From positions 62,001 to 126,000 of the forward strand of contig NZ_BBWK01000014.1 in NCBI RefSeq assembly GCF_001463765.1: DNA of 64,000 bases. The letters are read 5' to 3'. Below the pieces are notes generated by a model. That model ran no database searches. It was not told the DNA's origin and saw nothing but the letters and a program-made list of their open reading frames with translations. Of the stretch, positions 5,463 through 23,399 are shown piece by piece (within the stretch, counting starts at the first letter, position 1; every line of letters begins with the position of its first letter). The DNA is from Aureimonas sp. AU4. GTDB lineage: Bacteria > Pseudomonadota > Alphaproteobacteria > Rhizobiales > Rhizobiaceae. The position numbers were made by a program, and so were the translations under genes.

Positions 5463-5491
5463 TTGCAATGAGGGCGTGCATTTCGTAAGGT
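5463..5491 (+). promoter_or_regulatory. Candidate housekeeping-type promoter upstream of sctI
   Basis: TTGCAA (5463-5468), a 17-base spacer, then TAAGGT (5486-5491) lies in the 142-base gap between sctG and sctI, the only sizeable gap inside the rightward operon before the secretin. This is a reasonable match to the -35/-10 pattern of a vegetative sigma factor and could start a separate sctI-to-sctU transcript. It was found by eye only. Confidence 0.35.
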
Positions 5492-5551
5492 CACTTTGGA
5501 TGCGCGTCCGGGAGGTCGGGCGGCGTCTCTCCTATCGAAAGGGTCCGACCC

Positions 5552-6037: not shown

Positions 6038-6039
6038 GG

Positions 6040-6868: not shown

Positions 6869-7612
6869 ATGGCGGAACGGGGAGGAGAGGAGCTTCTGGC
6901 GGGCCCCTGGGGGGACGAGCGGGCACAGGCGCGCCTGTTCCACTTCGGCTGCCGTCTGGCCGCCTCGCTCGCCCGCCCGTTCGACGACGCCGACCCGCTG
7001 CCGGGATACTGGGGGCCGGTCGCGGGCGTCGACGTCGCGGCGCTCGCCCGCCACCCCGACTTCGCCGCCCCGCTCGCGCAAGCGGTCGCGCGGCACCGCG
7101 GGGTTCCCGGTCTCGACGCCTCGCGCCTCGCGCATGTCAGCCACCGCGCGGGCGGGCGCCTCGCGCTCCTGATCGCGACCGCCGCGCGCGGCGATCTCGC
7201 CGAGGTCGCGCGGCTCGTCTCGGCCGCCGTCTGGCACCGGCGGATCCTGCGCCTCGCGCTGCGGGCCGAGCGCGCGCGCATCCGCACGCTTCTCGGCGTC
7301 GAGAACTACAACGCCGCCACGCAGGAGGTTCCCACCCTCCATCCCTCGCTCGCCTTTCTCGATGCGGGCGACCCGTACTGGGACCGCGCCCGCGGGCCGG
7401 ACGAGGCGGACGGCGCGCGGGCGGTGGTGGAGCACGGCTCCGGCATCCTCCTGGCCTGCGCGAGCAACGCCGATCCCGCGCTCGGCGCGATGGCGGCCGT
7501 GCGCCACGGTCTCGACCTCGACGCCGCCCCGCCGCTGCCCGAGGCCCTGGAGCAGCATCTCGTCAAGCTCGTGCGCCGGAGGGTCCCATCGTGGTCGGCA
7601 CTTATCGGCTAG
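6869..7612 (+). CDS. sctK: SctK, sorting-platform accessory protein
   Basis: Cytoplasmic protein of 247 residues between sctJ and sctL, where sctK lies in Ysc operons. SctK links SctD to the SctQ pods of the sorting platform. The sequence has no signal or membrane segment and shows the WGPVAGVD and [20 protein letters not shown] segments typical of this poorly conserved family, for which size and position carry much of the weight. YscK is about 209 residues. Its 3' end overlaps the start of sctL by 22 bases. Confidence 0.82.
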
Positions 7613-8235
7613 CCGAGTTCGGCTTCCGCCTCGCCTCGGGCGCCCATCTCCTGCGCCGGGCCGACGTCGAGACGCTGGAGACGGCGGTCGCGCTCGTCAC
7701 GGCCGCCGAGGAGCGCGCGGCGGCGATCGAGGCTTCCGCCGCGGACGCCTTCGAGGCCGAGCGGCGGCGCGGCTACGAGGACGGGCTGGCCGCCGCGCGG
7801 CTCGAGGCGGCCGAGCGGCTTCTGGCCGAGAGCCTGACGCTCGACCAGCGGCTCGACGAGGTCGAGGGCGAGCTGGCCGAGCTCGTCGCGCAGGGCGTGC
7901 GCAAGCTCGTGGCCGAGTTCGACGAGCGCGCCAAGGCCGAGTCCATGGTGCGTGCCGCGCTGACGCAGATGCGGCGCGAGAAGAAGGCCGAGATCCGCGT
8001 CTCGCGCGAGCAGCTGCCCGAGCTTCGCGCCGTGGCCGAGCGGGTGCGCGGCGAGTTTCCCGAACTGCTTCTCGTCGACGTCCTGGGCGACGACACGCTG
8101 CAGAGCCCCAACGTCGTGGTGGAAACGGCGATCGGGCGCGTCGAGGGCGATCTCGGCCGCGCCGCGGGCGACCTCGAGCGCGCGCTGCGCGGCGTCGGCG
8201 CGCTGCGCGCGCAGGCAAGGGAAGAGCCCCGATGA
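7591..8235 (+). CDS. sctL: SctL, ATPase regulator/stator
   Basis: FliH/YscL-type protein of 214 residues that dimerises, binds the ATPase SctN and tethers it to SctQ. The N-terminal half is a charged coiled coil ([20 protein letters not shown]); the C-terminal half has the conserved globular region with [20 protein letters not shown] and a final helix. It starts at GTG 7591 behind GGAGGG, inside the 3' end of sctK. The stop overlaps the sctN ATG (ATGA), coupling the stator to its ATPase. Confidence 0.92.
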
Positions 8236-9614
8236 TCCGCGCCGAGCTTTCGGGCATGGCGGAGCTCGCCGCGGAGCGCCGCGAGCGCATCGGCCGCCGG
8301 ATCGGAGCCGCGCCCGCGCGCATCGCGACCGAGATCGCCCGCTTCCAGCCCTTCGGCGTCACGGGCCGCGTGCGCAAGGTGGTCGGCACGATCATCCATG
8401 CGGCGGTGGCCGAGATTCAAGTCGGCGAGATCGTGGAACTCGTGAACCGGCGCGCCGGCACGCGCCTCTACGCCGAGTGCGTCGGCTTCCTCGACGAGGA
8501 GGCGTTGCTGTCGCCGATCGGCGAGACGCAAGGGGTCAGCCCGCAGACCGAGGTCCACCGCACGGGCCGCGTCCAGCAGGTGGCCGTCGGGCCCGGCCTC
8601 AAGGGGCGCGTCCTCGACGGCATGGGCAACTTCGTGGACGGGCTCGACACGCCCTTCCAGCCGCTCGCCTACTATCCGGTCTACCAGGACCCGCCCGACC
8701 CGATGAAGCGGCGCGTGATCGACAAGCCGCTGCCGCTGGGCCTGCGCGCGCTGGACGGCATCCTCACCTGTGGCGAAGGCCAGCGCATGGGCATCTTCGC
8801 CGCCGCCGGCGGCGGCAAGTCCACGCTTCTCTCCATGCTGGTGAAGGGCGCCGACGTCGACGTGACCGTGCTGGCGCTGATCGGCGAGCGCGGCCGCGAG
8901 GTGCGCGAGTTCATCGAGCACGACCTCGGGCCCGAGGGCATGGCGAAGTCGGTGATCGTGGTGGCGACCTCCGACAAGAGCTCGATGGAGCGCGCCAAGG
9001 CCGCCTTCACCGCCACCGCGATCGCCGAATACTTCCGCGACCAGGGCCAGCGCGTCCTGTTCCTGATGGACTCGGTGACGCGCTTCGCCCGCGCCCAGCG
9101 CGAGATCGGGCTGGCCGCCGGCGAGCCGCCGACGCGGCGCGGCTTCCCGCCGTCCGTCTTCGCCAACCTGCCCAAGCTGATGGAGCGGGTCGGCATGAAC
9201 GACAAAGGCTCCATCACCGCGCTCTACACCGTGCTCGTCGAGGGCGACGACATGAACGAGCCGGTGGCCGACGAGACGCGCTCGATCCTCGACGGACACA
9301 TCATCCTGTCGAGAAAGCTCGCTTCGGCCAACCACTATCCCGCGATCGACGTCCTCGCCTCCAAGAGCCGCGTCATGAACGCGGTGACGACGCGCGAGCA
9401 CCGCCAGATGGCGAGCCGCATCAACCAGTGGCTCGCCACCTATGCGGACGTCGAGCTTCTCGTGAAGGTCGGCGAATACAAGCGCGGCGCCGATCCCGAC
9501 GCGGACCTCGCGATCGCCAAGTACAAGCACATCAACGCCTTCCTGCAGCAGGCGACCGACGAGTTCGACAGCTTCCAGGCCGTTCTCGACAAGCTGGCGG
9601 CGGTGACGCGATGA
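8232..9614 (+). CDS. sctN: SctN, T3SS ATPase
   Basis: Hexameric cytoplasmic ATPase at the entrance of the export channel; it strips chaperones and unfolds substrates. The 460 residues match the family in length. Visible are the F1-like beta-barrel N-terminal domain, the Walker A loop AAAGGGKST (about 190-198), the LIGERGREV motif (about 217), the Walker B strand VLFLMD (about 275-280), and the motor region [20 protein letters not shown]. Start at ATG 8232 overlaps the sctL stop; the open frame extends further upstream but would only read through sctL out of frame. All nucleotide-binding residues appear intact. Confidence 0.97.
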
Positions 9615-9627
9615 GCGGGGACGCGCG

Positions 9628-10107
9628 ATGATCGGCCAGATGAAGGTGCTCCTGCGCGTCAAGGACCTGAAGCAGGACCAGGCCTTCCGCGAGCTGCAGC
9701 GCCGCCGCGCGGCGGTGCGCGAAGCGGAGGAGGAGACGCGGCAGGCGGACGCCGCCGTCACGGAGAGCCAGCGCACGATGGAAACGCGCGAGGACGCGAT
9801 CTTCGCGGGCATCCTCGGTCGCGTGGTGGACCTCAGCGAGATCGACGCCACGCACGGGCGCGTAGTGGCGCTGGTGCGCGAGCACACGGTCCTGACCGAC
9901 ACGCGCGAGCGCGCCGTCCACGTCGAGGCGCGCCTGCGCGACGAGGCCGAGACCCAGAGCGGCGTCTACCAGGCGGCCGTGAAGGTGCGCGACAAGTACA
10001 CGATCCTCACCGACGACCTCGTCCAGGCGCGCGACGCCGAACGGGCGCTCGCCGAGGAGGTCGAGATCGAGGACATGTTCTCGCGTCCCCGCAAGCCGGT
10101 GTCCTGA
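9628..10107 (+). CDS. sctO: SctO, central stalk of the T3SS ATPase
   Basis: A 159-residue, highly charged, almost wholly alpha-helical protein without Cys or Trp, directly after sctN. SctO (YscO/FliJ family) forms an antiparallel two-helix coiled coil inserted in the SctN hexamer and contacts the SctV ring. The helices run roughly over residues 1-60 (KDLKQDQAFRELQRRRAAVR) and 75-150. Start at ATG 9628 is 13 bases after the sctN stop. Sequence conservation in this family is low, so position and coiled-coil form are decisive. Confidence 0.88.
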   Translation: MIGQMKVLLRVKDLKQDQAFRELQRRRAAVREAEEETRQADAAVTESQRTMETREDAIFAGILGRVVDLSEIDATHGRVVALVREHTVLTDTRERAVHVEARLRDEAETQSGVYQAAVKVRDKYTILTDDLVQARDAERALAEEVEIEDMFSRPRKPVS

Positions 10108-10117
10108 GGAGCCGCCC

Positions 10118-10843
10118 ATGACCCGCATCACGGGATTCGACACAAGCGCGGCGACCGAGCGCCGCGAGGGGGCCGAGGCGCACCGGCGCGAGGGCGAGCG
10201 CGACCTGACGGGCGGGCTCAAGCGCTTCCACACGGCGGGCGAGAACCTCCAGTCCGGCACGGGCCTCGGCGAAAGCCGCACCGGCGGCGAGGAGGGCGAT
10301 CGCCTGCGCCGCTTCGCCGAAAGCCTGAAGCGCGCCGACGCGAACCCGGACGGCGACGACGCCGCCTTGCCCGATCCGCGCCTTCTGGCGGTCGCCGAAC
10401 CGGGACGGCCCGCAGCCGTGGTTGTCTCATCCCTCGACGGCGCGGCGGAGCGGCGCGCCGATGCGCTCGCGCAGGGCGAGCGCATTGCACGCATGGTGGA
10501 AGGAGCGCTGCGCGCCGAGCTGTCGCCCGTGCCCGGACGCCCGCTCACCTTGAGCTTCGAGGCCCTGCGGCCCGGCGAGGCGGCGGGCGCGATCGCCGGC
10601 GTGTCGCTGACCCTGCACGAGGGCATGCTCGACGTGACGCTGCGCCGAAATCCCGACGGAACGCAGGACGCCCTGTTCCTGCAATCGGCCCAGGCGCTCG
10701 CCGAGCGGCTCGGCCAGCGCTATCCCAGGCGCGTCGTGCGCGTCCTGGAGGAGGCCGCGGGGGCGGTGGAGCGCGAGGCGGCGGAAGGCCCTTCGCGCCC
10801 CAGCGTCTTCGACCTCTTCGCGCGTCGGGACGAGCGCTCGTGA
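10118..10843 (+). CDS. sctP: SctP, needle-length ruler / substrate-switch protein
   Basis: A 241-residue protein between sctO and sctQ, the place of sctP (YscP/FliK). The family is secreted during assembly, sets needle length, and switches SctU to late substrates through a C-terminal T3S4 domain. Here residues 1-100 are hydrophilic and low in order (Glu/Arg/Gly-rich), and residues 120-225 form a compact part (LTLSFEALRPGEAAGAIAGV, then GMLDVTLRRNPDG) compatible with the T3S4 fold. It is much shorter than YscP (over 450 residues), suggesting a short needle if the ruler model holds. Its stop overlaps the GTG of sctQ. Confidence 0.78.
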   Translation: MTRITGFDTSAATERREGAEAHRREGERDLTGGLKRFHTAGENLQSGTGLGESRTGGEEGDRLRRFAESLKRADANPDGDDAALPDPRLLAVAEPGRPAAVVVSSLDGAAERRADALAQGERIARMVEGALRAELSPVPGRPLTLSFEALRPGEAAGAIAGVSLTLHEGMLDVTLRRNPDGTQDALFLQSAQALAERLGQRYPRRVVRVLEEAAGAVEREAAEGPSRPSVFDLFARRDERS

Positions 10844-11940
10844 CCCTCTTTCAACCCGACCGGTTCTTCACGCCCGCGGACGGCGGCGGCGCGGACGGCC
10901 TTCTCCTGTGGAACCGCTTCGTCGCCGGTGCCGGCGAGGCGAGGCCGGTCGGTGCCGGCGGCGTCTCGCTGCGCTACGAGCTGGCCGAGGCGCCCGCGCC
11001 CCAGACCTGGTGCGTGCGCCTTCTCCTGCCCGAGGCGATGGGGTCGGGCGCGATGCTCGTATGCCCGCGCGCCTTTCCGTTCCGCGAGATCGCGGGCGTC
11101 GAGCTCGACGCTTCGGATCTCGGCGCCCTGCCGGCGGAACTGCGCGGCGCGATCCTCCTCGGCATGCAGGGAGCCCTGGCCCGCGCAAGCGGCTTCGGCG
11201 CCGGCGCCTTGCCCCGCATCGGCGAGGACGGGCCGCTGTCGGCCCTGCGTGACCCGGCGCTCGAATGGCTCGCGGTGACGCTCGAAGGTGTCGCATCCGC
11301 TGAGGTTTCCGCCCATGTCGGCGCGCGGCGCGGCGACCTCCTGCGCCTTCTCGGAGCGCCCGGTGACGGGCCCATGCCGCAAGGCGCGCTTGCGGGCGGG
11401 CTGGAGGTGCCGGTCGACCTGACGGCGGGTCGGATCGACCTGACGCTCGCCGAGCTGCGCCGCATCGAGCCCGGCGACGTCGCGGTTCTGGCCGCCATGC
11501 CGGCCGACCAGCTCCATATCCGCGCCGGGCAGTTCCGCTTCGTGTTCACGCAAGGGGAGGGCGGCTGGACCTCGTCGGGCGCGCTTCCCATCCCGCGCCA
11601 GCGACCCCGCACCCTGTTCGGCGGCCTCGAAGCCGCCCAGCGCCAGGAAGATCCCGTCATGTCCGACCAGCCCGCCGATCGCGAGACCGCGCCCGACACC
11701 CTGTCGATCGAAGACCTGACGCTCGGCGTCGACTTCGATCTCGGCCGTGTCGCCGTGCCCTTCTCGACGCTCCAGAGCTGGACGCGCGGAACCGTGGTGC
11801 CACTCTCGCCGCCCTCCACCGAGCCGGGCGTCGCGGTCACGATCCGCATCAACGGCGATGCGGTGGGCACCGGCGACATCGTGCGCATCGACGACCGCAT
11901 CGGCGTGCGTATCACGCGCCTGGCCGCGCCCACCCGCTGA
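10840..11940 (+). CDS. sctQ: SctQ, sorting-platform (C-ring) protein
   Basis: Core of the cytoplasmic sorting platform, a 366-residue FliM/FliN-like protein that binds SctL and SctK. The N-terminal two thirds are variable. A first SpoA-like domain lies around residues 195-245 (ITLTLAEL-type region, LTAGRIDLTLAELRRIEPGD) and the C-terminal SpoA domain around 300-360 (LTLGVDFDLGRVAVPFSTLQ, then GDAVGTGDIVRIDDRIGVRI). It starts at GTG 10840 overlapping the sctP stop. An in-frame internal ATG with its own ribosome site at 11659 predicts a separate 93-residue SctQ-C product. A linker rich in Gln/Pro/Asp precedes that site. Confidence 0.92.
   Translation: MTLFQPDRFFTPADGGGADGLLLWNRFVAGAGEARPVGAGGVSLRYELAEAPAPQTWCVRLLLPEAMGSGAMLVCPRAFPFREIAGVELDASDLGALPAELRGAILLGMQGALARASGFGAGALPRIGEDGPLSALRDPALEWLAVTLEGVASAEVSAHVGARRGDLLRLLGAPGDGPMPQGALAGGLEVPVDLTAGRIDLTLAELRRIEPGDVAVLAAMPADQLHIRAGQFRFVFTQGEGGWTSSGALPIPRQRPRTLFGGLEAAQRQEDPVMSDQPADRETAPDTLSIEDLTLGVDFDLGRVAVPFSTLQSWTRGTVVPLSPPSTEPGVAVTIRINGDAVGTGDIVRIDDRIGVRITRLAAPTR
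11645..11661 (+). promoter_or_regulatory. Internal ribosome binding site and start for SctQ-C
   Basis: AGGAAG at 11645-11650 stands 8 bases before an ATG (11659) that is in frame with sctQ at codon 274. Initiation here would give the 93-residue C-terminal SpoA domain alone. Yersinia YscQ, Salmonella SpaO and others make such a short form by internal initiation, and it assembles with the full-length protein. The site lies in the low-complexity linker, as in those systems. Confidence 0.7.
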
Positions 11941-11959
11941 CAGGCAAGGCCGCGCCCGC

Positions 11960-12604
11960 GTGATCGATCCGCTCAACCTCATCTTCATCGTCGCGGCGGC
12001 CGCGCTGTTTCCCTTCCTGGCGGTCGTGGCGACGAGCTTCATCAAGCTGTCGGTCGTGTTCCTGCTCGTGCGCAACGCCATCGGCGTGCAGAACATCCCG
12101 CCCAACATGGCTCTGAACGCGCTCGCCATCATCCTGTCGGGCTACATCATGGCGCCCGTGGCGGTGGAGACGTTCAACATCCTGTCCGCCCAGCCGAGCC
12201 TCGACATGGGCTCGGCCGCCGGCATCCGCGCGGCCTACGACGCAGGCTCGGGACCGCTCACCGAGTTCCTGAACCGCCACGCCTCGATGCGCGAGAAGAT
12301 GTTCTTTCTGGAGGCCGCCCGCTCGCTCTGGCCGCCGGACCTGGCAAGCCAGCTCACCGAGACGAGCATGGCCGTGGTGCTGCCCTCCTTCACGGTCACG
12401 CAGCTGCGCGAGGCCTTCGAGATCGGCTTCCTTCTCTACCTACCCTTCATCGCCATCGACCTCATCGTCTCCAACATCCTGCTCGCCATGGGCATGATGA
12501 TGGTGAGTCCGCTCACCATCTCGCTGCCCTTCAAGCTCTTCCTGTTCGTCATGATCGACGGCTGGTCGCGCCTGATCCTCGGCCTGGTGAAGAGCTATGT
12601 CTGA
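11960..12604 (+). CDS. sctR: SctR, export-gate protein
   Basis: FliP/YscR-type protein of the helical SctR5-S4-T1 export gate in the inner membrane. The 214 residues carry four hydrophobic segments and the family signatures FIKLSVVFLLVRNAIGVQNI and PSFTVTQLREAFEIGFLLYL, with MGMMMVSPLTISLPFKLFLF near the end. Start taken as GTG 11960 (VIDPLNLIF), 19 bases after the sctQ stop, with AAGG upstream; the open frame before that overlaps sctQ. Very highly conserved family, so the call is firm. Confidence 0.97.
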   Translation: MIDPLNLIFIVAAAALFPFLAVVATSFIKLSVVFLLVRNAIGVQNIPPNMALNALAIILSGYIMAPVAVETFNILSAQPSLDMGSAAGIRAAYDAGSGPLTEFLNRHASMREKMFFLEAARSLWPPDLASQLTETSMAVVLPSFTVTQLREAFEIGFLLYLPFIAIDLIVSNILLAMGMMMVSPLTISLPFKLFLFVMIDGWSRLILGLVKSYV

Positions 12605-12622: not shown

Positions 12623-12889
12623 ATGACCCCCGACGTCGCGCTCCAGCAGATCCAGGAGGCCATGCTCCTGGTCATGGTCCTGTCCATGCCGCCGATCATC
12701 GTGGCGTCCGTGGTCGGCATCCTCGTCAGCCTTCTCCAGGCGCTGACGCAGATCCAGGAGCAGACCGTCTCCTTCGCGATCAAGCTGATCGCGGTGGCGG
12801 CGACGATCGCGGCCATGGCCGGGCTGCTCGGCTCCGAGATGGTGAACTTCTCGATCAAGCTCTTCGACGGCTTCCCGAGCATGACATGA
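12623..12889 (+). CDS. sctS: SctS, export-gate protein
   Basis: FliQ/YscS-type protein of 88 residues, the normal size, with two membrane-buried helical hairpins (AMLLVMVLSMPPIIVASVVG and SFAIKLIAVAATIAAMAGLL) separated by the conserved QALTQIQEQT loop that closes the gate. ATG 12623 is preceded by GGCGGAGAGAAG, a strong ribosome site. It lies between sctR and sctT. Confidence 0.97.
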   Translation: MTPDVALQQIQEAMLLVMVLSMPPIIVASVVGILVSLLQALTQIQEQTVSFAIKLIAVAATIAAMAGLLGSEMVNFSIKLFDGFPSMT

Positions 12890-12899
12890 CGGACCGGTC

Positions 12900-13835
12900 A
12901 TGAACGGCGTCGCGGACATCGCCCGGCTCTACTTCTCGCTGTTCGACCGCGAGATCATCGCGCTGATCCTGACGCTGCCGCGCATCTACGCCTTCATGCA
13001 GGTCTCGCAGCTTCTGGCCGACACCGCCGTGCCGCGCCTGCCCAAGACCGCCGCGATCCTCTCGCTCTCGGTGATCGCGGTGCCGATCAACTACGCCTAT
13101 GTGGACGCGTTCGACCGGACCGTGCCCGCCTTCGCGCTCCTGATCCTGAAGGAATACGCGATCGGCTTCGTGCTCGGCTACATCGTCGGCTGGATCTTCT
13201 GGGCCGTGCAGTCGGCGGGCGCCTTCATCGATAACCAGCGGGGCGCGGCGATCGCGGCCTCGATCGACCCGCTCCAGGGCCACGAGACCTCACCGCTCGG
13301 CATTCTCTTCTCCCAGGCCTTCCTGACCTACGTCTACACGACCGGCGCGATGCTGCCGATCCTCGGGCTGCTCTACCAGAGCTACGAGCTCTGGCCGGCC
13401 ACGCGCGGCGTGCCGATCCTCAGCCCCGAATTTCCGACGCTGGCGCTCGCGGTCGCCGACAACGCGCTGCGCATCATGGTGATCATCGCGGGACCGGTGG
13501 TGGCGGTCATGTTCCTCGCCGAGTTCGCGCTCGCCATGGTCAGCCGCTTCGCGCCGCAGGTCCAGGTCTTCATCCTCGCCATGCCGATCAAGAGCGCGCT
13601 CGCGATCCTGATCCTGATCTTCTACTTCTCGCGCCTCCTGCCCTACGGCGTCGAGCAGCTCGGCACCTTCCGGCCCTTTATCGACCGCTTCTACGCGGTG
13701 ATGCAGTTCTCGAACGCCGTGCCCGTGCCGCCAGCGGGCGAGACGCGGCCGACCGAGCCGCACGCCCGGCCGATCGAGGTTCCCGCGCCTCGTCTTCCCC
13801 CGCCGCAGACCGAGCCCCAGGAGGTCGTCCCATGA
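12900..13835 (+). CDS. sctT: SctT, export-gate protein with Pro-rich tail
   Basis: FliR/YscT-type inner-membrane protein that caps the export-gate helix with SctR and SctS. The 311 residues include the conserved GFVLGYIVGWIFWAVQSAGA and IDNQRGAAIAASIDPLQGHE motifs, with about six to eight hydrophobic segments up to residue 260. Typical SctT proteins end near residue 260. Here a hydrophilic tail of about 45 residues rich in Pro (VPAPRLPPPQTEPQEVVP) follows, probably cytoplasmic. Its stop overlaps the sctU ATG (ATGA). Confidence 0.96.
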   Translation: MNGVADIARLYFSLFDREIIALILTLPRIYAFMQVSQLLADTAVPRLPKTAAILSLSVIAVPINYAYVDAFDRTVPAFALLILKEYAIGFVLGYIVGWIFWAVQSAGAFIDNQRGAAIAASIDPLQGHETSPLGILFSQAFLTYVYTTGAMLPILGLLYQSYELWPATRGVPILSPEFPTLALAVADNALRIMVIIAGPVVAVMFLAEFALAMVSRFAPQVQVFILAMPIKSALAILILIFYFSRLLPYGVEQLGTFRPFIDRFYAVMQFSNAVPVPPAGETRPTEPHARPIEVPAPRLPPPQTEPQEVVP

Positions 13836-14956
13836 GCGAGGGCGGCGAGAAGACCGAACTTCCGACCCCCAAGAAGGAGCGCGACGCGCGCGAGAAGGGG
13901 CAGGTCGCGCGCAGCCAGGAGGTCGTCACCACGGTCTCGCTGCTCGCCGTCGTCGCCTATGTCTGGACGCGGTGGGGCGCGATCACCGAAGCCTTCGTCG
14001 GTATGTTCGACCAGATGGCGAAGCTCGCGACCGGCGACTTCCGCACCGTGGCGTTGCCGGCCGTCTTCTACGCCTTTCGCGAGAGCGCCTTCCTGCTCCT
14101 GCCCGCGCTTGGCGTCGTGATCCTGGCGGGCATCGCGGCCAACTACGCCCAGTTCGGATCGCTCTTCTCGTTCGAGAGCATCGCGCCCAAGCTCGAGAAG
14201 ATCAGCCCCGCCGCCGGCTTCAAGCGCATCTTCTCGATGAAGCAGGTGGTCGATCTCCTGAAGTCGATCCTCAAGATCGTCTTCCTGTCGGTGCTTCTCT
14301 ACATCGTCCTGCGCGGGGCGATCGGCCCCTTCATGAACTCGCTGGAATGCGGCATCCCCTGCATCGCGGACGTCACCTCGACGATCCTGTTCCAGACGCT
14401 GGCCTATTCGGCGGTGGCCTTCATCATCGTGGCGGTGGCCGACTTCGCCTACCAGAAGCATTCCCACACCAAGAGCCTCATGATGTCGAAGGACGAGGTG
14501 AAGCGGGAATACAAGGAGAGCGAGGGCGACCCGCACATCAAGGGCAAGCGCAAGCAGCTCGCCCACGAGCTCGCCATGAGCGACGGCGGCGCTGCGGCCC
14601 GGAAGGGGACCGCCCTGGTCGTGAACCCGACCCATTTCGCAGTCGTGCTGCACTACAAGGCCGGCGAGACGCCGCTGCCGACCGTGACCGCCAAGGGGCA
14701 GAACGCGATCGCCGCCTATCTTCGCCGCGAGGCGGAGGAGGCGGGGGTGCCCGTGTTCCGGAACGTCACGCTGGCGCGCGCGCTCTATGCCGACGCCGAT
14801 CTCTACGAGCCGGTTCCCGACGAACTGTTCGACGCGGTGGCGGAGGTGCTGGCCTGGGTGTCCCGGCACGAGGACACGCTCTACCGGCAGCGCCTGCCCC
14901 ATGGCGTGATCGACATGGACGGCGGAGATCATCGCCCGGAAGGACGTGCCTCGTGA
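13832..14956 (+). CDS. sctU: SctU, autocleaving export-switch protein
   Basis: FlhB/YscU family, the inner-membrane protein that controls the switch from early to later substrates. The 374 residues start with the family signature GEKTELPTPKKERDAREKGQ. Four hydrophobic segments follow (about 31-48, 84-104, 143-162, 186-205), then a cytoplasmic domain with the autocleavage motif NPTH at residues 265-268, intact. The last 20 residues are a polar extension. Coupled to sctT by ATGA. It is the last gene before the 220-base leader of the secretin gene. Confidence 0.97.
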   Translation: MSEGGEKTELPTPKKERDAREKGQVARSQEVVTTVSLLAVVAYVWTRWGAITEAFVGMFDQMAKLATGDFRTVALPAVFYAFRESAFLLLPALGVVILAGIAANYAQFGSLFSFESIAPKLEKISPAAGFKRIFSMKQVVDLLKSILKIVFLSVLLYIVLRGAIGPFMNSLECGIPCIADVTSTILFQTLAYSAVAFIIVAVADFAYQKHSHTKSLMMSKDEVKREYKESEGDPHIKGKRKQLAHELAMSDGGAAARKGTALVVNPTHFAVVLHYKAGETPLPTVTAKGQNAIAAYLRREAEEAGVPVFRNVTLARALYADADLYEPVPDELFDAVAEVLAWVSRHEDTLYRQRLPHGVIDMDGGDHRPEGRAS

Positions 14957-15033
14957 CTGACGCGCCGCAGCATATCCTCATGAACTTGCTTGGGCCTGAA
15001 CGCCGGAAAACATGCGGCAGCCGCGCAACGCTA

Positions 15034-15176: not shown

Positions 15177-17585
15177 GTGAAGACTGCCCCCATACCCCCT
15201 CATCCCGCCGCCCGCCGCCCTTACGCCGCCGTCTCGAGGATCGGCCGCGGCGCCATCCCGCTTCTCGCCCTCACGCTTCTGGCCGGCTGCAACGGATCGG
15301 GCCTCGGCGCGGTCGAGGACGTGGCCGGGCCGACGGGCCAGCCGCGCCTGGAAAACGGCGCGCCGGAACGGCGGGGGCCCGTGGTGGACGTGCGCGCGAT
15401 CAACGCGGCGGGCGTCGCGCGCACGGCGCAGCCCTTCACCGGCTATGTCGGGCCGCAGCGCGTCGAATACGCCCCCAACACGGTGCAGCTCACGCAGGAC
15501 CTCAACGAGCTCAAGACCAGCAACACGACCGGCTTCGATCCCAACGAGCGCATCACGGTCGACTTCCAGAACGCCAGCGTCAACTTCGTCCTGCAGCAGC
15601 TTCTCGGCGGCGCGCTGGGCCTCAACTACGTCGCGCCCGACAATCTTCCCGGCACGATCACCTTCCGCACCGAGACCCCGATCCCGAAGAGCCGCGTCAT
15701 CGACGTCGTGCGCGACCTTCTCGCCCGCAACGACCTCGTGATCCGCAACATCAACGGCGTCTACCACGTCGGCTCGGCCGCCGTAATCCAGGGCCTCGTC
15801 GCCAACGCGGCCATCGGCTCGGCCGGCGAGGAGGTGACGCGCATCGTCAAGCTCGGCAAGGGCAACGCCGCGCAGGTCGTCCAGCTCGGCAACGCGCTGG
15901 TGCCCGGCGGCGTCGTCCTGCAAACCTCCTCCTCGCCCAACACCGTGGTGCTGCGCGCCTCGCCCGACGAGGCCGACGGGGTGGAGCGCCTGCTGCGCAC
16001 CATCTCGCAGTCGGCTGTCGGCGACGGCACGGTGGCGATCCTGCCGCTCAGCCAGAGCGAGCCGACCGCCATCGCCGAGCGCGTGACCGCCTTCTACGCC
16101 TCGACGATCCGCGGCGACGAGCCGCCCGTCACGGTCTTGCCGCTCGAGGCGCAGCGCGCGCTCCTCGTCGGCACGCCCGACGCCCAGCAGATGAACGGCG
16201 TCCGGCTTCTCGTGCAGCAGCTCGACCGCTCCACCACCGACGTCTCGTCCTTGCGCGTCATTCCCCTGACGCACCTGCGGGCCGAGGAGATCGCGCCCCA
16301 GGTGAGCCGCGTCTTCGGCTCCGGCGTCGAGACGCCGGCCAGCAACACGCGCGCCGAGCAGCGCGCCGCGCTGACCGACGTCAAGCGCTCCAGCCCCAAC
16401 AGCCGGCTGTTTCCCCGCGCCCGCCTGCCGGGCGCGGGCGAGGGACCCTTGTCGGACGGCGAGCTCGACACGGGCACCGGCACGACGCTCGCGCCCCCGC
16501 CGGCTCTCGGCGTCTCGCCCGACCCGAGCGGTCAGGTGCAGGGCGGCCAGCTGCAGGGCGGCACCGCGACGGGTAGCCGCCTGGCCGCCGGCCAGGACGC
16601 GGCGGCCGGCGACGAGGCGGCGGCGATCCAGGGCGCCGGCGTCTCGCAGAGGACGACCCCGCAGGTGGCGCAGCCGACGAGCGGCGAGATCCGCATCGTG
16701 CCCGACACGCGCACCAACACGCTTCTGGTTTATTCGAGCTACCGCATCTACAACCAGATCCGCGAGATCGTTCAGGCCCTCGACGTGCCCGAGGCGCAGG
16801 TCGTCATCGAGGCGACCGTGATCGAGGTGACGCTCAACGACCGGCTCGAGCGCGGCGTCCAGTTCTTCCTGGAATCCAACGGCATCGGGGCCGGTTCGGG
16901 CATCCCTTCCGCCGTCTCACCCACCAGCGGCGGCATCGTCGGCTTCTCGGGCACGCTCGGCAACATCAGCGTCAACGCCGTTCTCACGGCACTGCGCGAG
17001 GTGACCAACGTCAAGGTCGTGTCCTCGCCCTATCTCACCGTCCTCAACAAGCGCACCGCGCGCCTCGTGATTGGCGACCAGATCCCGTTCGCCACCGCCA
17101 CCCAGTCCTCCAACAACCTCGGCAACGTCACCGTGACGCGCGAGATCCAGGTCGTGGACACCGGCGTCGTGATGGAGATCACCCCGCAGATCCACGCCAA
17201 CAACTCGGTCGATCTCCAGATCAGCCAGTCGGTCTCGACGCCCGTCGCCAGCAGCCAGTCGCAGGACCTGACGCCCACCATCGCGACACGCGACCTGCAG
17301 AGCCAGATCCTCGTCCAGTCGGGCCGCACGGTCCTGCTCGGCGGCCTGATCCAGGACCGTGTCGAGAACTCGCGCACCGACGTGCCGGTGGCCGCCGACC
17401 TGCCGGTGATCGGCAACCTCTTCCGTCAGAAGACCAAGGAAGCGCGTCGCAACGAGCTTCTGGTCCTCATCACGCCGCGCGTCACGCGCACCTCGAACGA
17501 GCTCGAAAGCATCACCCGCCTCCTGCGCTCGGCCCAGGTCGACGGCGGCGGCATACCGCGCGAGCCGGCGGTCGTGAAGCCCTGA
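15177..17585 (+). CDS. GspD-type lipoprotein secretin, probable outer-membrane ring of this T3SS
   Basis: Outer-membrane secretin of 802 residues. From GTG 15177, behind GGAGG, it has a signal sequence with lipobox LLAGC (Cys 38). The N0 domain spans about 125-198 (ITVDFQNASVNFVLQQLLGG). Three KH-like repeats N1, N2 and N3 follow, and N3 carries a Gly/Gln-rich insertion (around PSGQVQGGQLQGGTATGSRL). The secretin core begins near VVIEATVIEVTLNDRLERGV and ends with VAADLPVIGNLFRQKTKEAR and LLVLITPRV. N0-N1-N2-N3 with a lipobox is the layout of type II GspD proteins, whereas most SctC proteins are 500-700 residues with N0-N1-N3. It lies between sctU and a convergent sctD with no other type II genes nearby, so use as SctC is inferred from context. 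A longer start at 15012 is possible but would bury the signal peptide. Confidence 0.85.
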   Translation: MKTAPIPPHPAARRPYAAVSRIGRGAIPLLALTLLAGCNGSGLGAVEDVAGPTGQPRLENGAPERRGPVVDVRAINAAGVARTAQPFTGYVGPQRVEYAPNTVQLTQDLNELKTSNTTGFDPNERITVDFQNASVNFVLQQLLGGALGLNYVAPDNLPGTITFRTETPIPKSRVIDVVRDLLARNDLVIRNINGVYHVGSAAVIQGLVANAAIGSAGEEVTRIVKLGKGNAAQVVQLGNALVPGGVVLQTSSSPNTVVLRASPDEADGVERLLRTISQSAVGDGTVAILPLSQSEPTAIAERVTAFYASTIRGDEPPVTVLPLEAQRALLVGTPDAQQMNGVRLLVQQLDRSTTDVSSLRVIPLTHLRAEEIAPQVSRVFGSGVETPASNTRAEQRAALTDVKRSSPNSRLFPRARLPGAGEGPLSDGELDTGTGTTLAPPPALGVSPDPSGQVQGGQLQGGTATGSRLAAGQDAAAGDEAAAIQGAGVSQRTTPQVAQPTSGEIRIVPDTRTNTLLVYSSYRIYNQIREIVQALDVPEAQVVIEATVIEVTLNDRLERGVQFFLESNGIGAGSGIPSAVSPTSGGIVGFSGTLGNISVNAVLTALREVTNVKVVSSPYLTVLNKRTARLVIGDQIPFATATQSSNNLGNVTVTREIQVVDTGVVMEITPQIHANNSVDLQISQSVSTPVASSQSQDLTPTIATRDLQSQILVQSGRTVLLGGLIQDRVENSRTDVPVAADLPVIGNLFRQKTKEARRNELLVLITPRVTRTSNELESITRLLRSAQVDGGGIPREPAVVKP

Positions 17586-18179: not shown

Positions 18180-20381
18180 CTACCGCACGATCCAGTTGAC
18201 GTTCGTGCCGAAGATGACGGCGGACACGTCGTTGCCGCGCGCGACCGCGACGCCGAGCTCGCCGACGCTGGCGATGCGGCTGTTGCGATCCGGGGCGGCG
18301 CCCTCGTGGAGCTTGCGCCCGCCGCGCAGCTGCACGAAGCGGTTGACGCTTCCCAGATTCGCGCCCGCGATGTCGAGGTCGTAGCGCGCGAGGTCCCGCG
18401 TGATGAAGCTCACGAAGTCGGGGTTGCGCGTCACCTCGTCGAGATACACCGAATCGACCGAGAGGCCGGCACGCGAGGCGCAGTCGTCGACGCGGCTGGG
18501 GTTCAAGGCGGCTTCCAGGACCAGCGGGCGCGTCTCGGCCGCCACGCTCTGCAGCGTCAGGTCGGAACTGACCGACAGAAGGTCGAGCCAGAACAGGATG
18601 CCGGACACGTTCGCGGGGGTGATCTCGGCCCCACGCCAGCAGGCGGCCTGCGGCTCGGCGCCCTCGCGCCGGCGGATCGGGGCGTAGCGCTCCTCAAGGC
18701 TCGCCTGCGGGCGGGCGAGGCGCAGCGCCTCCAGCGCGCGGTCGATGCGCGGTCCGTCGCCGACCCCCGGCATGCCCTTGGAGTTCCAGACGCCGATGAG
18801 GTCGCGCACCGCCTTGTTGTTGGCTTGGCCAGGATCGGTGGGCTCGGCGGCGACGAGGCGGGGGGCGGCGTCCGGCTCGGTCGCGCCGGTCTCCTGCGCG
18901 ACCGTGGCCGTCGGCGCCGTGCGGGCCGCGAGCGCCTGCGAGGCGGCGCCCTCGGCCGCGTCCTCCATGAAGGGCGTGCCGACGCGGCGCACCGCCCGGC
19001 CGGCCGCGATGCCTCCGCCGCCCTCGATCACGGAGGCGAGGTCGAGCGGACGCCCGCTCGCCGGCTGCGCCAGCGTCGCGGCGTCGGGCACGGCGGCGGC
19101 GCGGTTGGCGAACACGTCCTCCAGCTTGTAGTCGCCGGCCGTCAGGCGGTCGGGGTCCATGCGCACGTCGCCGGCCGCGAGCGGCGCATCGCCGAGCACC
19201 AGCGCCGGGCCGCCGGGCGCGGGGCGCAGCGAGCCGTCCGGGTTCTGGAGCTGCACCAGCGAGCGCAGGGGAATGAGCTTGGCGTACTGGCTGGAATAGG
19301 CCTGGAGGAAGCCCACCCAGCTGTCGACCTTCTCGGACGGAAGAACGCCGCTGATCTCGGCGAGCGAGCCGTCGAGGCGCAGGAGCGTGAGCGGCGCGAT
19401 GCCGGAGCGGTCCGACAGGGTCTGGATGTCGGCGAGCAGCGTGTCGCGCGTGCGGATCTGCGAGGACACCTTCTGCAGGCCGATGATGCTGCTTTCCACG
19501 AGCCCCGTGACGCGCTGCGCCTCGGCGGGGTCGAGGATCGTGCCGGTGAGCGTCGCCTCGGCGCGGTTCGACAGCTGGAAGTCGACGCCCGGGGCCTCGC
19601 TCTTGAGGAGCTGCGCGATCTCGGCGCGCATGGATTCCAGGACCCCGACGCGCACGCGCGCCGCCTCGTCGGCCGTGCGCACGTCCTGCAGCACGGCGCG
19701 CCGCTCGGCGGGCGTCTCGACGAAGCCGGTCACGAACACGGCGCCGTCGACCTCCTGGCGGGCGGCGACGTCGCGCGCGAAGGGAAGGGCGCGCAGCGCC
19801 GTCTCGACGCGCTCCAGCGTCGGGCGGGCCTGGGGTTGTGCTCCGGCCGTGCCAGGGCCGACGCCCATCGTGGCGAAGGCCGCCGCGCCCACGGCCGCAA
19901 CCGCGATGCCGGCCGCGACAGGAAGGCCCCAGCGCAGCAGGGCGGGCCGCTCGCCCGCCGGGCGCGGGACGCCGTCCGCGCGGCCGCGCCGCAGCCGCAG
20001 GCCGGGACGGCGGACCTTCACGGGCGTCGGCGTCTCGCCCTCGCCGAGCGAGGACCAGTTCGCGCTGGCAAGGCCCGTCGTGAAGCGCGTCGTGCCGACC
20101 CAGACGACGTCGAGCGGCTCGAGGTCCACCGGCTCGCCGTCGGCGGCAAGCTGCACGCCGGTCTGGGTGCGGGCGGGACCCGCGCCCCCCGCCAGCGAGA
20201 CCTTGCCGTTCTGCACGCGCAGCCTGACATGGCCCGGCAGGAGGCTGACGTCGAAGATCTGGATGTCGTCGTCGTCGCCCGAGCCGAGGACGTAGTCGCC
20301 GTCCACGAGGAAGACGTCCACGCCGGACTGCACGCCGGTCAGGATCTTCAGGATGATGGGATCGCCGGCCGCGTCGGTCAT
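18180..20381 (-). CDS. sctD: SctD, inner-membrane ring protein with long C-terminal extension
   Basis: Outer of the two inner-membrane basal-body rings; its cytoplasmic FHA-like domain holds SctK and the sorting platform. Residues 1-110 are the FHA-like domain (ILTGVQSGVDVFLVDGDYVL, then LPGHVRLRVQNGKVSLAG). A single membrane helix lies at about 149-172, followed by periplasmic ring-building (BON-like) modules to about 380 (FVTGFVETPAERRAVLQDVR, then ATLTGTILDPAEAQRVTGLV). SctD usually ends near residue 400-430. Here about 350 more residues follow: a low-complexity Ala/Pro linker (385-520) and a terminal domain (520-733) with two Cys (about 581 and 634) in an otherwise Cys-free periplasmic part. 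The start at 20381 has GGGGGG upstream. It is transcribed toward the secretin gene. Confidence 0.88.
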   Translation of the reverse strand: MTDAAGDPIILKILTGVQSGVDVFLVDGDYVLGSGDDDDIQIFDVSLLPGHVRLRVQNGKVSLAGGAGPARTQTGVQLAADGEPVDLEPLDVVWVGTTRFTTGLASANWSSLGEGETPTPVKVRRPGLRLRRGRADGVPRPAGERPALLRWGLPVAAGIAVAAVGAAAFATMGVGPGTAGAQPQARPTLERVETALRALPFARDVAARQEVDGAVFVTGFVETPAERRAVLQDVRTADEAARVRVGVLESMRAEIAQLLKSEAPGVDFQLSNRAEATLTGTILDPAEAQRVTGLVESSIIGLQKVSSQIRTRDTLLADIQTLSDRSGIAPLTLLRLDGSLAEISGVLPSEKVDSWVGFLQAYSSQYAKLIPLRSLVQLQNPDGSLRPAPGGPALVLGDAPLAAGDVRMDPDRLTAGDYKLEDVFANRAAAVPDAATLAQPASGRPLDLASVIEGGGGIAAGRAVRRVGTPFMEDAAEGAASQALAARTAPTATVAQETGATEPDAAPRLVAAEPTDPGQANNKAVRDLIGVWNSKGMPGVGDGPRIDRALEALRLARPQASLEERYAPIRRREGAEPQAACWRGAEITPANVSGILFWLDLLSVSSDLTLQSVAAETRPLVLEAALNPSRVDDCASRAGLSVDSVYLDEVTRNPDFVSFITRDLARYDLDIAGANLGSVNRFVQLRGGRKLHEGAAPDRNSRIASVGELGVAVARGNDVSAVIFGTNVNWIVR

Positions 20382-20425: not shown

Positions 20426-20628
20426 GAACCCGGCGAGCGGGCGAGGGTACGGATCGTCACGTTCGGGACAGCTATACGCGGTTAGCCGACCTGCCACTAG
20501 GGCAGATTGCACGCTTGGCGGGCAAAATGACTTAGGGTAAAGCCGCCGGGCGGACAGGGCGCGGATCGAAACTTCGGAGCGGCGATGAGGTGGCATCCGG
20601 ACGGGGCGGCGCGCAAGGGGCGGGTGCC

Positions 20629-21375
20629 ATGCCCGGCGGCCCCGTGAACGCCCCGCGCGCCGCCGGCGCGCCGCGCGAGCGCATCGCCTTCCGGCAGGGG
20701 TCGGAATTCTCCACGCTGTCGCCCGCCGTCGCCTCGCGCCTGTCGCAGATCGGGAGCGTGCGGCTCTACGGTCCGAACGAGTTCGTCTACCTCCAGGACG
20801 ACGAGGCCGATCACCTCTACTTCGTGCGCTCGGGCCACATCCGCCTGTCCTACCTCCTGGAGGACGGCTCGGCCGTCCTCTTCGCGATCCTGCCGCCCGG
20901 CGAGAGCTTCGGCGAGCTCGGCGTTTTCGCGGGCGGCACCCATCACGACATGGCGACGACGATCGGCACGTCCTCGGTCTTCCGCGTGCCGGCGGCCGAG
21001 TTGCGCGAACTCGACGGCCAGGGCGGCGAGACCGCGCTCGCGCTCGGGCGCACCGTGGCCCGGCGCTACCGGTCCTATATCGCGCTCACGCGCTCGCTCG
21101 GCCTCAAGACGCTGAACGGCCGGCTGTCGCAGGCGCTCCTGCGCCTGTCCGACGACCTCGGCTCGACCGCGCCCTTCGAGGGGCGCCAGGTGCCTGCGGT
21201 GGGCGCCTTCGTGACGCAAGGGGATCTCGGCATGATGGCGCGGGGCGCGCGCTCCAACGTCAACCGTGCGTTGAAATCCTGGGAGAGGGCGGGGTGGATC
21301 GCGGTGCGCGAGCGTGCGATCCTGATCGTCAACCGACCGCGCCTCGAGGCGCTCTGGCTGGAGGAGGGCCTGTGA
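20629..21375 (+). CDS. Crp/Fnr-family transcriptional regulator of the T3SS locus
   Basis: A 248-residue regulator with a cyclic-nucleotide-binding-type beta-roll (about 25-140, PNEFVYLQDDEADHLYFVRS, then PPGESFGELGVFAGGTHHDM), a dimer helix, and a Crp-type winged helix-turn-helix (VTQGDLGMMARGARSNVNRA). The N-terminal cysteines of Fe-S FNR proteins are absent. The phosphate-binding cassette of CRP has Arg-Ser/Thr-Ala after GEL; here that place reads HHDMATT, so canonical cAMP binding is doubtful. Start at ATG 20629 behind AAGGGG; GTG 20590 is an alternative. The stop overlaps the start of sctE (TGATG), tying this regulator to the needle chaperone and needle genes. A role as T3SS activator is inferred. 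Confidence 0.88.
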   Translation: MPGGPVNAPRAAGAPRERIAFRQGSEFSTLSPAVASRLSQIGSVRLYGPNEFVYLQDDEADHLYFVRSGHIRLSYLLEDGSAVLFAILPPGESFGELGVFAGGTHHDMATTIGTSSVFRVPAAELRELDGQGGETALALGRTVARRYRSYIALTRSLGLKTLNGRLSQALLRLSDDLGSTAPFEGRQVPAVGAFVTQGDLGMMARGARSNVNRALKSWERAGWIAVRERAILIVNRPRLEALWLEEGL

Positions 21376-21662
21376 TGCCCGATGACGAGGCGCCCGTGGC
21401 GATGAACGACCTGGCGGAGCGCCTGATGGCACCCGAAGGTCCCCTAGAGGCAGGTCGCCATGCCGAGCGTCTCGACAGTCTTCGCCAAGACGTGAGGCGG
21501 CAGATGCGGTCGGGGGCCGCGCCCGAAACCTACGCTAGACTTGAGCGCGTGGCGCGAGCGCTTGATCACGCCAGGGTTGTCATGCTAGCCATGGCCTCAC
21601 GATCGACGCCGGATGTCTCAGAACCCCGCCGATCTTCTTTCTTTGGAGGAATGGATCGATGA
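21375..21662 (+). CDS. sctE: SctE (YscE family) needle co-chaperone
   Basis: A 95-residue helical protein that ends exactly where the needle gene begins (ATGA overlap). YscE/PscE/SsaE proteins are small two-helix chaperones that, with the TPR protein SctG, bind the needle subunit in the cytoplasm. The segment AERLDSLRQDVRRQMRSGAA followed by PETYARLERVARALDHARVV matches the family pattern of a long helix, a Gly/Pro turn and a second helix. It has extra residues at both ends compared with the 66-residue YscE. It starts by overlapping the stop of the regulator gene. Confidence 0.75.
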   Translation: MPDDEAPVAMNDLAERLMAPEGPLEAGRHAERLDSLRQDVRRQMRSGAAPETYARLERVARALDHARVVMLAMASRSTPDVSEPRRSSFFGGMDR

Positions 21663-21979
21663 GCACCACCTGGGGCGCGGGCTCGACCGCGGAACTGTAT
21701 CGCCAGACGCGGACCGGCGCGGATCTCGCGACCGACGGCAAGTTCGTCAACCGCGACGGCTTCGACCTGATCTGGCGCCAGAAGGAACTCGGCGACCAGA
21801 TGTCGAAGATCGAGGACGACATCCGCGCCATCGAGAAGAACGCCAACCTCTCGGACACCGAGAAGATGTTCGCCATGCAGATGGCCATGAACACCTGGTC
21901 GGCGGTCTCGAACCTGCGCACCAACATGCTGAAGTCGGTCGCCGACACGCTGAAGTCGATCGCGCGCAACGTGGCCTGA
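21659..21979 (+). CDS. sctF: SctF, T3SS needle subunit
   Basis: Extracellular needle filament subunit of 106 residues. The C-terminal half is the family signature helix: MAMNTWSAVSNLRTNMLKSV then ADTLKSIARNVA. The N-terminal helix contains DFDLIWRQ-like hydrophobic positions and the turn region NANLSDTEKM corresponds to the conserved loop between the two helices. MxiH and YscF are 83-87 residues, so the N terminus is about 20 residues longer. GGAGGAATGG upstream gives a ribosome site. A strong terminator follows at 22045. Confidence 0.93.
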   Translation: MSTTWGAGSTAELYRQTRTGADLATDGKFVNRDGFDLIWRQKELGDQMSKIEDDIRAIEKNANLSDTEKMFAMQMAMNTWSAVSNLRTNMLKSVADTLKSIARNVA

Positions 21980-22103: not shown

Positions 22104-23399
22104 ATGGCCGGAGCCATCGAGACCACCCGCCAGAATGTCGCCGCGCTCAGCGCGACCTCGCCGGTCGGCGCGGAGGTCATGCGGGCCGTTCAGGGCAACT
22201 ATCGCGGCGAAACGGTCGAGACGTCTTCGGAAGCCTCCAAGCTCGAGGACGCGAAGGAGGAGATCGGCATGGCGGTGGCGCACCGCGCCGACAAGAAGAC
22301 GCTCGGTCAGCGCCAGGTGCGTCAGGGCCAGGGCGCCAACCTCCAAGCCATCGCGCGCATCGCCGACTACTACGACAAGCTGCCCGACATGCCCCGCGAG
22401 AGCGAGCTGCAGGGGCTCGTTGAGGACCTGACGCGCATGCAGGAACTGCTGCAGGGCGGCGGAGGCGGCGGGGGAGGCTCGGCGACCGCCGAGGACGTGC
22501 TGCGGCTCCTTCAGCGCTTCGATCCGGACTCGACCCACCAGTTCGCCGCGCTCGAGATCGCCCGCGACTTCTTCGCCGCAAGCGGCGGGGACGAGGCTTT
22601 CCAGGCTCTGCTCGACCAGGCGCATGCCGCCTACGGGCGGGGCGATCTCGGCCGCGACGTGCGTGCGGGCTTCGCGTCCGCCGAGGTCGCCGCGCGCGCC
22701 AGCGCGACGATGGAGACCGACCCCGCCCTGTTCCGAGACGCCTATCGCCAGATGGCGCGGGAGACGCCGGACATGGGGCGATTGTTCGATGCCTTCCGCG
22801 CCTTCGACCCGCTCAAGAACTTCGACGAGATCGTCGCCGCCTTCATGGAGACGGCGGGGCGCGACCTCGCCGCCACCGGTCCCTCGGCCGACCCGGTACA
22901 CCTCCACGGCCTCCTCACCGAGCTCGGCAAGCTGAAGAAGATGTCGACCACGTTGGAGATGGCCGAGGATCTTGCGCGAACCACCAACCGGCTCCTGCGG
23001 CCCGACGACCAGCCGACCGATTATTCCAAGGTCAAATGTCCGGCCTGCCGTGCGCGCGAGAGTCGACAGGAGGTGTTGAAGACCCCGTCGGTGTGCAGGA
23101 CATGCCGCTCGGGAGCCGCGCTGGACATCGCGGGCCTGATGCTCTCCTACGCCTCGCGCCAGTCCGCAGGCTCCGGCGACGCGCGTCAGCTCCTGCACCC
23201 CTATGCGCAATGCTCGCTCGCCACCCAGGTCGCCTTCGCCAACGGGCTCCACGACATGCACCGCCAGCTCTCCGACGAGATCATGCCCTCGCCCCAGGCT
23301 CGCCTTCAGCAGAGCGCGGCGCTTTCCGCCCTGAACGAGGAACTGGTGAACGCAGAAGAGGCCGCCTGGCAGGCCGAAGCGCAGCGGGGCGTGGCATGA
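22104..23399 (+). CDS. sctW: SctW, T3SS gatekeeper (YopN-TyeA fusion) with CxxC pairs
   Basis: Gatekeeper of the YopN/MxiC/HrpJ family that holds back effectors until contact. The 431 residues have an unstructured secretion-type N terminus, the HrpJ-like helical region (about 45-300), and a C-terminal stretch compatible with a fused TyeA domain (AFANGLHDMHRQLSDEIMPS then a final helix ending ELVNAEEA). A Gly8 linker lies at about 118-125. Between the two parts (residues 310-336) is KCPAC ... VCRTC, with Cys at 312, 315, 331 and 334, a zinc-ribbon-like arrangement I do not know from other gatekeepers. Start ATG 22104 follows GGGAGA. It overlaps the downstream SycN-like gene by 4 bases, as expected for a protein and its chaperone. 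Confidence 0.72.
   Translation: MAGAIETTRQNVAALSATSPVGAEVMRAVQGNYRGETVETSSEASKLEDAKEEIGMAVAHRADKKTLGQRQVRQGQGANLQAIARIADYYDKLPDMPRESELQGLVEDLTRMQELLQGGGGGGGGSATAEDVLRLLQRFDPDSTHQFAALEIARDFFAASGGDEAFQALLDQAHAAYGRGDLGRDVRAGFASAEVAARASATMETDPALFRDAYRQMARETPDMGRLFDAFRAFDPLKNFDEIVAAFMETAGRDLAATGPSADPVHLHGLLTELGKLKKMSTTLEMAEDLARTTNRLLRPDDQPTDYSKVKCPACRARESRQEVLKTPSVCRTCRSGAALDIAGLMLSYASRQSAGSGDARQLLHPYAQCSLATQVAFANGLHDMHRQLSDEIMPSPQARLQQSAALSALNEELVNAEEAAWQAEAQRGVA

Follow-up and report, generated by a model that had tools for sequence, protein, structure and literature searches.

A GspD-like secretin encoded in a type III secretion locus of Aureimonas sp. AU4 and other Alphaproteobacteria

Type III secretion systems (T3SSs) are established to have acquired the secretins of other machines, including a transfer from type II secretion systems (T2SSs) to Chlamydiae (PMC3459982, PMC4793230, PMC6668835), and three such recruitments are recognised (PMC3459982). 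In chlamydial CdsC, the secretin domain clusters with phage pIV inside the T2SS secretins and the protein has a large unique N-terminal region, and the rhizobial pair RhcC1 and RhcC2 combines a Tad-derived secretin with a retained N-terminal stub of SctC, RhcC1 (PMC3459982). For the Rhizobium etli group, a survey of 2012 reported rhcC1 alone (PMC3574062). The T3SS of Pseudovibrio has been described as forming a branch of its own within the Ysc group; its gene architecture is unusual, and its nearest cluster is that of Labrenzia aggregata (PMC4811931). Here we analyze a secretin gene of Aureimonas sp. AU4 at positions 15177-17585 (+ strand) of a 64,000-nucleotide stretch of DNA (the window; C14:62001-126000), from a 4.49-Mb genome assembled in 139 contigs and rated 100% complete. 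A sequence-only reading of this DNA had placed the gene between sctU and sctD and had taken its product for a type II-like, lipidated secretin serving a Ysc-family export apparatus, with Chlamydiae as a precedent for secretin replacement. That position is correct, with sctU upstream (13832-14956, + strand) and sctD downstream (18180-20381, - strand), and the precedent is documented (PMC3459982). Our analysis indicates that the gene very probably encodes the outer-membrane ring of this injectisome, a GspD paralogue taken over by a Ysc-like T3SS.

Domain layout and ancestry of the secretin

The protein has 802 amino acids when read from the GTG at 15177, which has GGAGGTGA immediately 5' of it; an alternative in-frame ATG at 15012 would give 857 amino acids. 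It matches both the Secretin and the Secretin_N families of Pfam, and of all models it best fits the NCBIfam GspD model (TIGR02517), with 340.6 bits over model positions 2-600 of 600, narrowly under the cut-off of 351.35. The SctC model (TIGR02516) gives 101.2 bits, under its cut-off of 238.45, and aligns only over model positions 191-461 of 463, the C-terminal part comprising N3 and the barrel. All nine relatives that we scanned, chosen from the 32 described below, likewise match the GspD model best and at full length (321-365 bits, with the cut-off exceeded in four) and the SctC model at 87-114 bits. An SctC control shows the opposite pattern, scoring 480 bits with the SctC model versus 150 with the GspD model.

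Profile-profile comparison identified N0 (residues ~124-201), N1 (~217-283) and N2 (~284-352), together encoded at 15546-16232 (+ strand), as matches to alphaproteobacterial GspD with probabilities of 98.8, 87.8 and 97.4%, versus 4.0, 36.7 and 3.4% for SctC. An AlphaFold2 model of moderate confidence (mean pLDDT 66, pTM 0.40) contains the same domains, with N0 at ~129-200, N1 at ~220-279, N2 at 285-352 and N3 split into 358-380 and 506-535. The secretin (beta-barrel) domain follows at residues 541-772 (16797-17492, + strand), as assigned by Pfam PF00263 and the AlphaFold2 model. These comparisons, together with VIA-align, give the N0-N1-N2-N3-secretin layout of GspD, as the earlier reading had proposed. 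That reading had also described a Gly/Gln-rich insertion in N3. The insertion is real, covering 124 residues (380-503; 16314-16685, + strand) that are disordered and mostly below pLDDT 50; its composition (16% G, 15% A, 8% Q) is instead Gly/Ala-rich.

The proposed lipobox is also present: it reads LLAGC and ends in Cys38 (15288-15290, + strand), a cysteine that aligns and is invariant in all 33 window-type sequences, the window's own included. We scored lipoboxes with a simple pattern of our own, built from the lipobox motif, and found it in 28 of 33 window-type secretins and 22 of 23 alphaproteobacterial GspDs, in 2 of 28 other GspDs and 1 of 23 SctCs, and in 3 of 6 secretins of the rhizobial "subgroup III" (discussed below) and 3 of 10 Tad-like proteins. 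For this count three duplicate alphaproteobacterial GspD rows were removed, and the alphaproteobacterial GspDs L206 and L213 were left aside. Because the lipobox is usual in alphaproteobacterial GspD and rare in other GspDs and in SctC, the predicted lipid anchor looks inherited from the GspD donor, and its distribution is, at the level of sequence motifs, an independent mark of that putative donor. The notion of a distinct hybrid holds for the pairing of secretin and apparatus, but the lipid anchor is apparently not peculiar to it.

We built a secretin tree on 272 columns of N3 and the barrel, retaining 76 of 107 rows after dropping two long SctC rows and 29 near-duplicate or side rows (among them pIV and the alphaproteobacterial GspD L222). 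L147 (genome G539), a protein of unassigned role, was counted among the alphaproteobacterial GspDs. Window-type secretins form one clade (support 100/100), which together with rhizobial subgroup III and 22 of the 23 alphaproteobacterial GspDs makes up a 99/99 group, with no clear sister inside it. SctC (100/100) and the Tad/RhcC2 rows (100/99) are separate clades. Joining the window clade to SctC was rejected by the approximately unbiased (AU) test (p-AU 0.038), and a Tad/RhcC2-type (RcpA/CpaC) identity was discarded, the window's secretin falling outside the Tad/RhcC2 clade. A strongly diverged SctC that regained N2 and converged on GspD would be another way to arrive at such a protein. We regard this as extremely unlikely: the SctC model reaches across N3 and the barrel only, N0 and N2 match GspD and not SctC, the lipobox is that of alphaproteobacterial GspD, and both the secretin tree and the AU test argue against it.

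The apparatus has a different history. In an SctV tree rooted on FlhA, the systems with a window-type secretin again form one clade (100/100), which sits in an 83/91 group (not starred) with subgroup III, G539 and the systems of SctC-bearing genomes; "SctC" in this tree means that the genome has an SctC-type secretin, in several cases on another contig. Taken together, the two trees indicate that it was the secretin, and not the apparatus, that was exchanged. The pattern is that of a secretin swap in a T3SS, in which a GspD-type secretin appears to be combined with an apparatus related to SctC-bearing systems.

Association with type III secretion

A scan of named genomes with two short peptide patterns, which may miss members elsewhere, returned 32 relatives of the window's secretin, all alphaproteobacterial. 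They occur in Aurantimonadaceae, Devosia, Chelatococcaceae, Methylobacterium, Stappiaceae (Pseudovibrio, Labrenzia, Breoghania), Rhodobacterales and others, so that the window-type secretin is a clade found across several families of Hyphomicrobiales and in Rhodobacterales, and no hybrid confined to one genome. Apart from the secretin, each of the 32 loci holds one or more T3SS genes (just one recognised core gene in L116 and L142), and the association is therefore beyond chance. Queries with GspC, D, E, F and H-M of AU4 (GspG was not queried) found gsp genes at none of these loci, each covered over 6.8-22.3 kb; at three T2SS control loci they found several gsp genes in two and gspK alone in the third.

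We also examined 397 genomes drawn evenly from the order, with which several of the 32 named genomes overlap. Seventeen matched the secretin at E<=1e-60. In 12 of these, AU4 included, the best match reached 249 bits or more, and all 12 have SctR over its cut-off; secretin and SctR share a contig in 10 of them, and the other two have sctD on the secretin's contig. Among the five scoring 207-218 bits, SctR was over the cut-off in one, on another contig. Close orthologs of the secretin are present in 3 of 21 genomes of the genus, and when nine genomes were picked for SctR (seven from the genus, one from the family and one from the order), it exceeded the cut-off in exactly the three with a close ortholog.

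Within AU4, PF00263 at E<=1 finds three secretins genome-wide, one of them in the window, which agrees with the earlier statement that the window holds no other. The second, at 399.5 bits and over the cut-off, is the GspD of a separate gsp locus (L004:8850-11420), which also has GspE and further frames that read from sequence as gspM, L, C, F, H, I, J and K. The third is short and lies near a second gene for a T2SSE-family ATPase; we take it to be Tad. Neither the PF00263 search at E<=1 nor the NCBIfam models thus found a canonical sctC anywhere in the genome. A canonical sctC elsewhere together with a gsp operon lacking gspD would have told against the earlier reading; neither was found, and the gsp locus has its own gspD. 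The window's secretin is thus the only one found in the genome that would fit as the outer-membrane ring of this T3SS. As a side observation, three Aureimonas genomes (G001, G011 and G017; loci L017, L019 and L021) carry a GspD of ~710 amino acids that differs in type from that of the AU4 gsp locus.

The GspD-like sequence and the presence of a gsp locus would also suit a second T2SS secretin that lies in the T3SS locus by chance and serves the gsp machinery, or both machines. We consider this quite unlikely: the gsp locus has its own high-scoring GspD, all 32 named loci are T3SS loci, the window clade stands apart from T2SS GspD at 100/100, and of 14 genomes with a window-type secretin, 8 (two of them Aureimonas) gave no GspE match at E<=1e-60.

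Patchy occurrence, with a close ortholog in only those 3 of 21 genus genomes, would fit yet another explanation, in which the secretin is a mere passenger beside a T3SS that either is a relict or exports its substrates with no outer ring dedicated to it. Against it, sctD, F, J, N, Q, R, S, T, U, V and W and the translocon gene sctB are all recognisable, and the ratio of nonsynonymous to synonymous substitution rates (dN/dS) relative to Aureimonas jatrophae, whose secretin is the closest among named relatives (94% identity), is 0.075 for the secretin (761 codons), 0.158 for SctD and 0.101 for SctU. The first of these values indicates that the secretin gene is under purifying selection; relative to L113 its dN/dS is 0.213 (752 codons). 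We hold a relict system to be highly unlikely.

The SctD partner and the surrounding cluster

A GspD-type ring in this system would have to dock on SctD. The SctD of the window matches TIGR02500 over residues 9-383 at 64.4 bits (cut-off 86) and carries the Pfam YscD cytoplasmic and BON domains. It consists of an FHA domain, a transmembrane segment (152-170), a periplasmic ring part to ~383, a linker (384-524), an added domain (525-670) and a C-tail (671-732), so that an insertion of ~285 residues, a ~140-residue linker plus a ~145-residue domain, separates the ring part from the secretin-facing C-tail. The added domain contains Cys581 and Cys634, both present in 23 of 23 aligned sequences. We saw no Pfam or solved-structure match for SctD outside its ordinary part. 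In A. jatrophae, a frame that by eye resembles a protein kinase sits between the secretin gene and sctD (L015:4191-5456).

Of the 36 window-type sources, 26 yielded an SctD, as did 3 of 6 subgroup III loci, 4 of 10 SctC stretches and 1 of 2 others. A profile of the SctD C-terminal region, built from 23 window-type sequences, matches 26 of 26, three of them independent of the profile, and no match to the insertion domain, or to anything beyond the C-tail, was found in the eight SctDs from other T3SS loci. By open frame, SctDs of window-type systems measure 674-1170 amino acids. Over their final ~60 residues they show weak similarity to the ordinary C-tail of two SctDs from subgroup III (E 5e-4 and 0.023). 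We infer that the insertion may be an adaptor to the GspD-type secretin.

The remaining apparatus genes of the window lie on the + strand. Upstream of the secretin are sctJ (frame 5476-6861, the real start probably further in; TIGR02544 225.6 bits, cut-off 161.95), the ATPase gene sctN (7362-9614, a frame longer than the gene, matching from about residue 320; NF005391 718.8 bits, cut-off 657), sctQ (10840-11940; TIGR02551 91.8 bits, under the cut-off of 100.8), sctR (11747-12604; TIGR01102 255.4 bits, cut-off 208.6), sctS (12623-12889; TIGR01403 94.3 bits, cut-off 76.5), sctT (12900-13835; TIGR01401 208.3 bits, cut-off 163.05) and sctU (Pfam PF01312 373.4 bits). Between sctN and sctQ are two small genes (9628-10107 and 10118-10843) with no NCBIfam match and with relatives in some other loci; they occupy what we take, by position alone, to be the usual place of sctO and sctP. 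Beyond sctD come a Crp/Fnr-type regulator gene adjoining the T3SS (20590-21375; Pfam PF00027 and PF13545; relatives in some other loci), the needle subunit gene sctF (21659-21979; Pfam PF09392 43.2 bits, cut-off 29.4; TIGR02105 32.2 bits, under the cut-off of 41.7) and the gatekeeper gene sctW (22104-23399; HrpJ domain, Pfam PF07201 54.4 bits, cut-off 25). The genes sctV and sctB are on the same contig, outside the window (L006). At the edge of the cluster, a 771-residue protein (1600-3915, - strand) with no NCBIfam match is a possible secreted component. SctV has its best solved match in a "low calcium response protein" (7alw, 825.6 bits; SsaV 515.4 bits). This match, the NF005391 assignment of SctN and the published placement of Pseudovibrio (PMC4811931) point to a Ysc-like apparatus; our SctV tree contains no named Ysc reference.

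These data suggest a model in which an ancestral alphaproteobacterial Ysc-like T3SS took a GspD paralogue that replaced SctC or filled its place. The secretin would be exported by Sec, lipidated at Cys38 and brought to the outer membrane by this anchor itself, perhaps with no need of a separate pilotin, and would then oligomerise, with N3 and the secretin domain forming the gated barrel. Its N0, N1 and N2 domains would form periplasmic rings that must dock on SctD instead of GspC; the SctD insertion may bridge the interface to the longer GspD-type periplasmic stack, or its extra height, and needle and substrates would pass through the GspD-type channel.

Several observations weigh against this account. 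The genome also has a gsp locus, so cross-use is possible in AU4, and the confidence of the secretin's structure model is moderate. The AU test rejects an SctC origin by a modest margin, though the clade supports are 100/100, and the alphaproteobacterial GspDs do not all group together: 1 of 23 rows, or 3 of 29 in a larger tree, falls among other GspDs. The window type is uncommon, at 12 of 397 genomes of the order, and of 385 genomes drawn from the class, 15 have SctR over its cut-off, AU4 alone among these carrying the window type. Finally, three SctDs of rhizobial subgroup III lack the insertion, and the secretin that they face is likewise GspD-like; the insertion is thus not strictly required and may have another role.

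Comparison with known secretin recruitments

The subgroup III systems are the closest parallel. Six rhizobial plasmids of the R. etli type carry a GspD-like secretin within their T3SS clusters (L220:12834-14936, L221:10828-12882, L223:9944-11974, L224:6894-8918, L225:6807-8900 and L226:7029-8897), variously annotated as "secretin N-terminal domain-containing protein", "type II/III secretion system protein" or "putative General secretion pathway protein D". Judging from R. etli, we infer that these systems are the "subgroup III". Both of the subgroup III secretins that we scanned exceed the GspD cut-off, and all form their own clade (100/100). The three SctDs found there are of ordinary size (447-459 amino acids), unlike the long SctD of the window type. 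The 179-residue genes upstream of two of the secretins have no RhcC1 match, and at E<=1 no RhcC1-like stub was found in the six loci or in the 36 window-type sources (the window, L006, L265, L266 and L112-L143), many of which are partial. The SctC profile does find separate RhcC1-type stubs in two other T3SS loci (L263 and L264), whose secretins lie outside our trees.

The window clade and subgroup III may derive from one recruitment or from two. Joining them in the secretin tree is not rejected (p-AU 0.474); the SctV tree prefers them apart, with joining again not rejected (p-AU 0.115), and a concatenate of seven apparatus proteins (22 of 26 rows, four long or sparse rows being dropped) joins them with a support of 50. 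In the 2.0-Mb alphaproteobacterial genome G539, a T3SS occurs with a single GspD-like secretin (L260:7731-10577), a possible further recruitment; GspE was not found in this genome, and no T3SS gene was seen on the secretin's contig. A tentative and rather doubtful proposal is that alphaproteobacterial T3SSs recruited a GspD on at least one occasion and perhaps on two or three (the window clade, subgroup III and possibly G539), each solving the joint between SctD and secretin differently, with the cysteine-bearing docking domain of SctD as a purpose-made adaptor between two unrelated machines in the window clade and none in subgroup III.

In the literature that we searched, which mostly excludes subscription journals, we found no description of a GspD-type secretin in this T3SS (excerpts of PMC3806328, PMC4811931, PMC3574062, PMC4793230, PMC6668835, PMC3635987 and PMC3459982 included). 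Loci of Pseudovibrio (L125-L128 and L141) and of Labrenzia/Roseibium (L118, L123 and L124) carry the window-type secretin, and theirs is evidently the same system as the one in PMC4811931, in whose main text "GspD" and "type II secretion" do not occur and whose excerpted passages do not discuss the secretin. The kind of event is known; we found no description of its alphaproteobacterial donor, of a Ysc-type host apparatus, of its breadth within Alphaproteobacteria or of the coupled change in SctD.

Such systems have practical consequences. Detection based on sctC may score these injectisomes as having no secretin, and annotation may read window-type genes as T2SS GspD, as the four of nine scanned relatives over the GspD cut-off illustrate. 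They also offer a natural test of the requirements for a T3SS inner ring to accommodate an outer ring of foreign origin, and an example of how the parts of molecular machines can be swapped.

Set beside its possible donor, the window type shares the N0-N1-N2-N3-secretin layout, the lipobox and the 99/99 group with alphaproteobacterial T2SS GspDs such as L004:8850-11420, but that protein is encoded in a gsp locus and the window type at none of 32 loci. It resembles RhcC1/RhcC2 as a secretin replacement in an alphaproteobacterial T3SS, the donor there being Tad (PMC3459982). Like chlamydial CdsC, it is a T2SS-type secretin serving a T3SS (PMC3459982); unlike CdsC, which we compare by description and outside the tree, it groups with alphaproteobacterial GspD, and its apparatus is apparently Ysc-like. 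IKe pIV is a long branch that falls among other GspDs in our larger secretin tree. To the recruitments already recognised, the window type would add one of GspD into the Ysc branch, in environmental and host-associated Alphaproteobacteria of several families.

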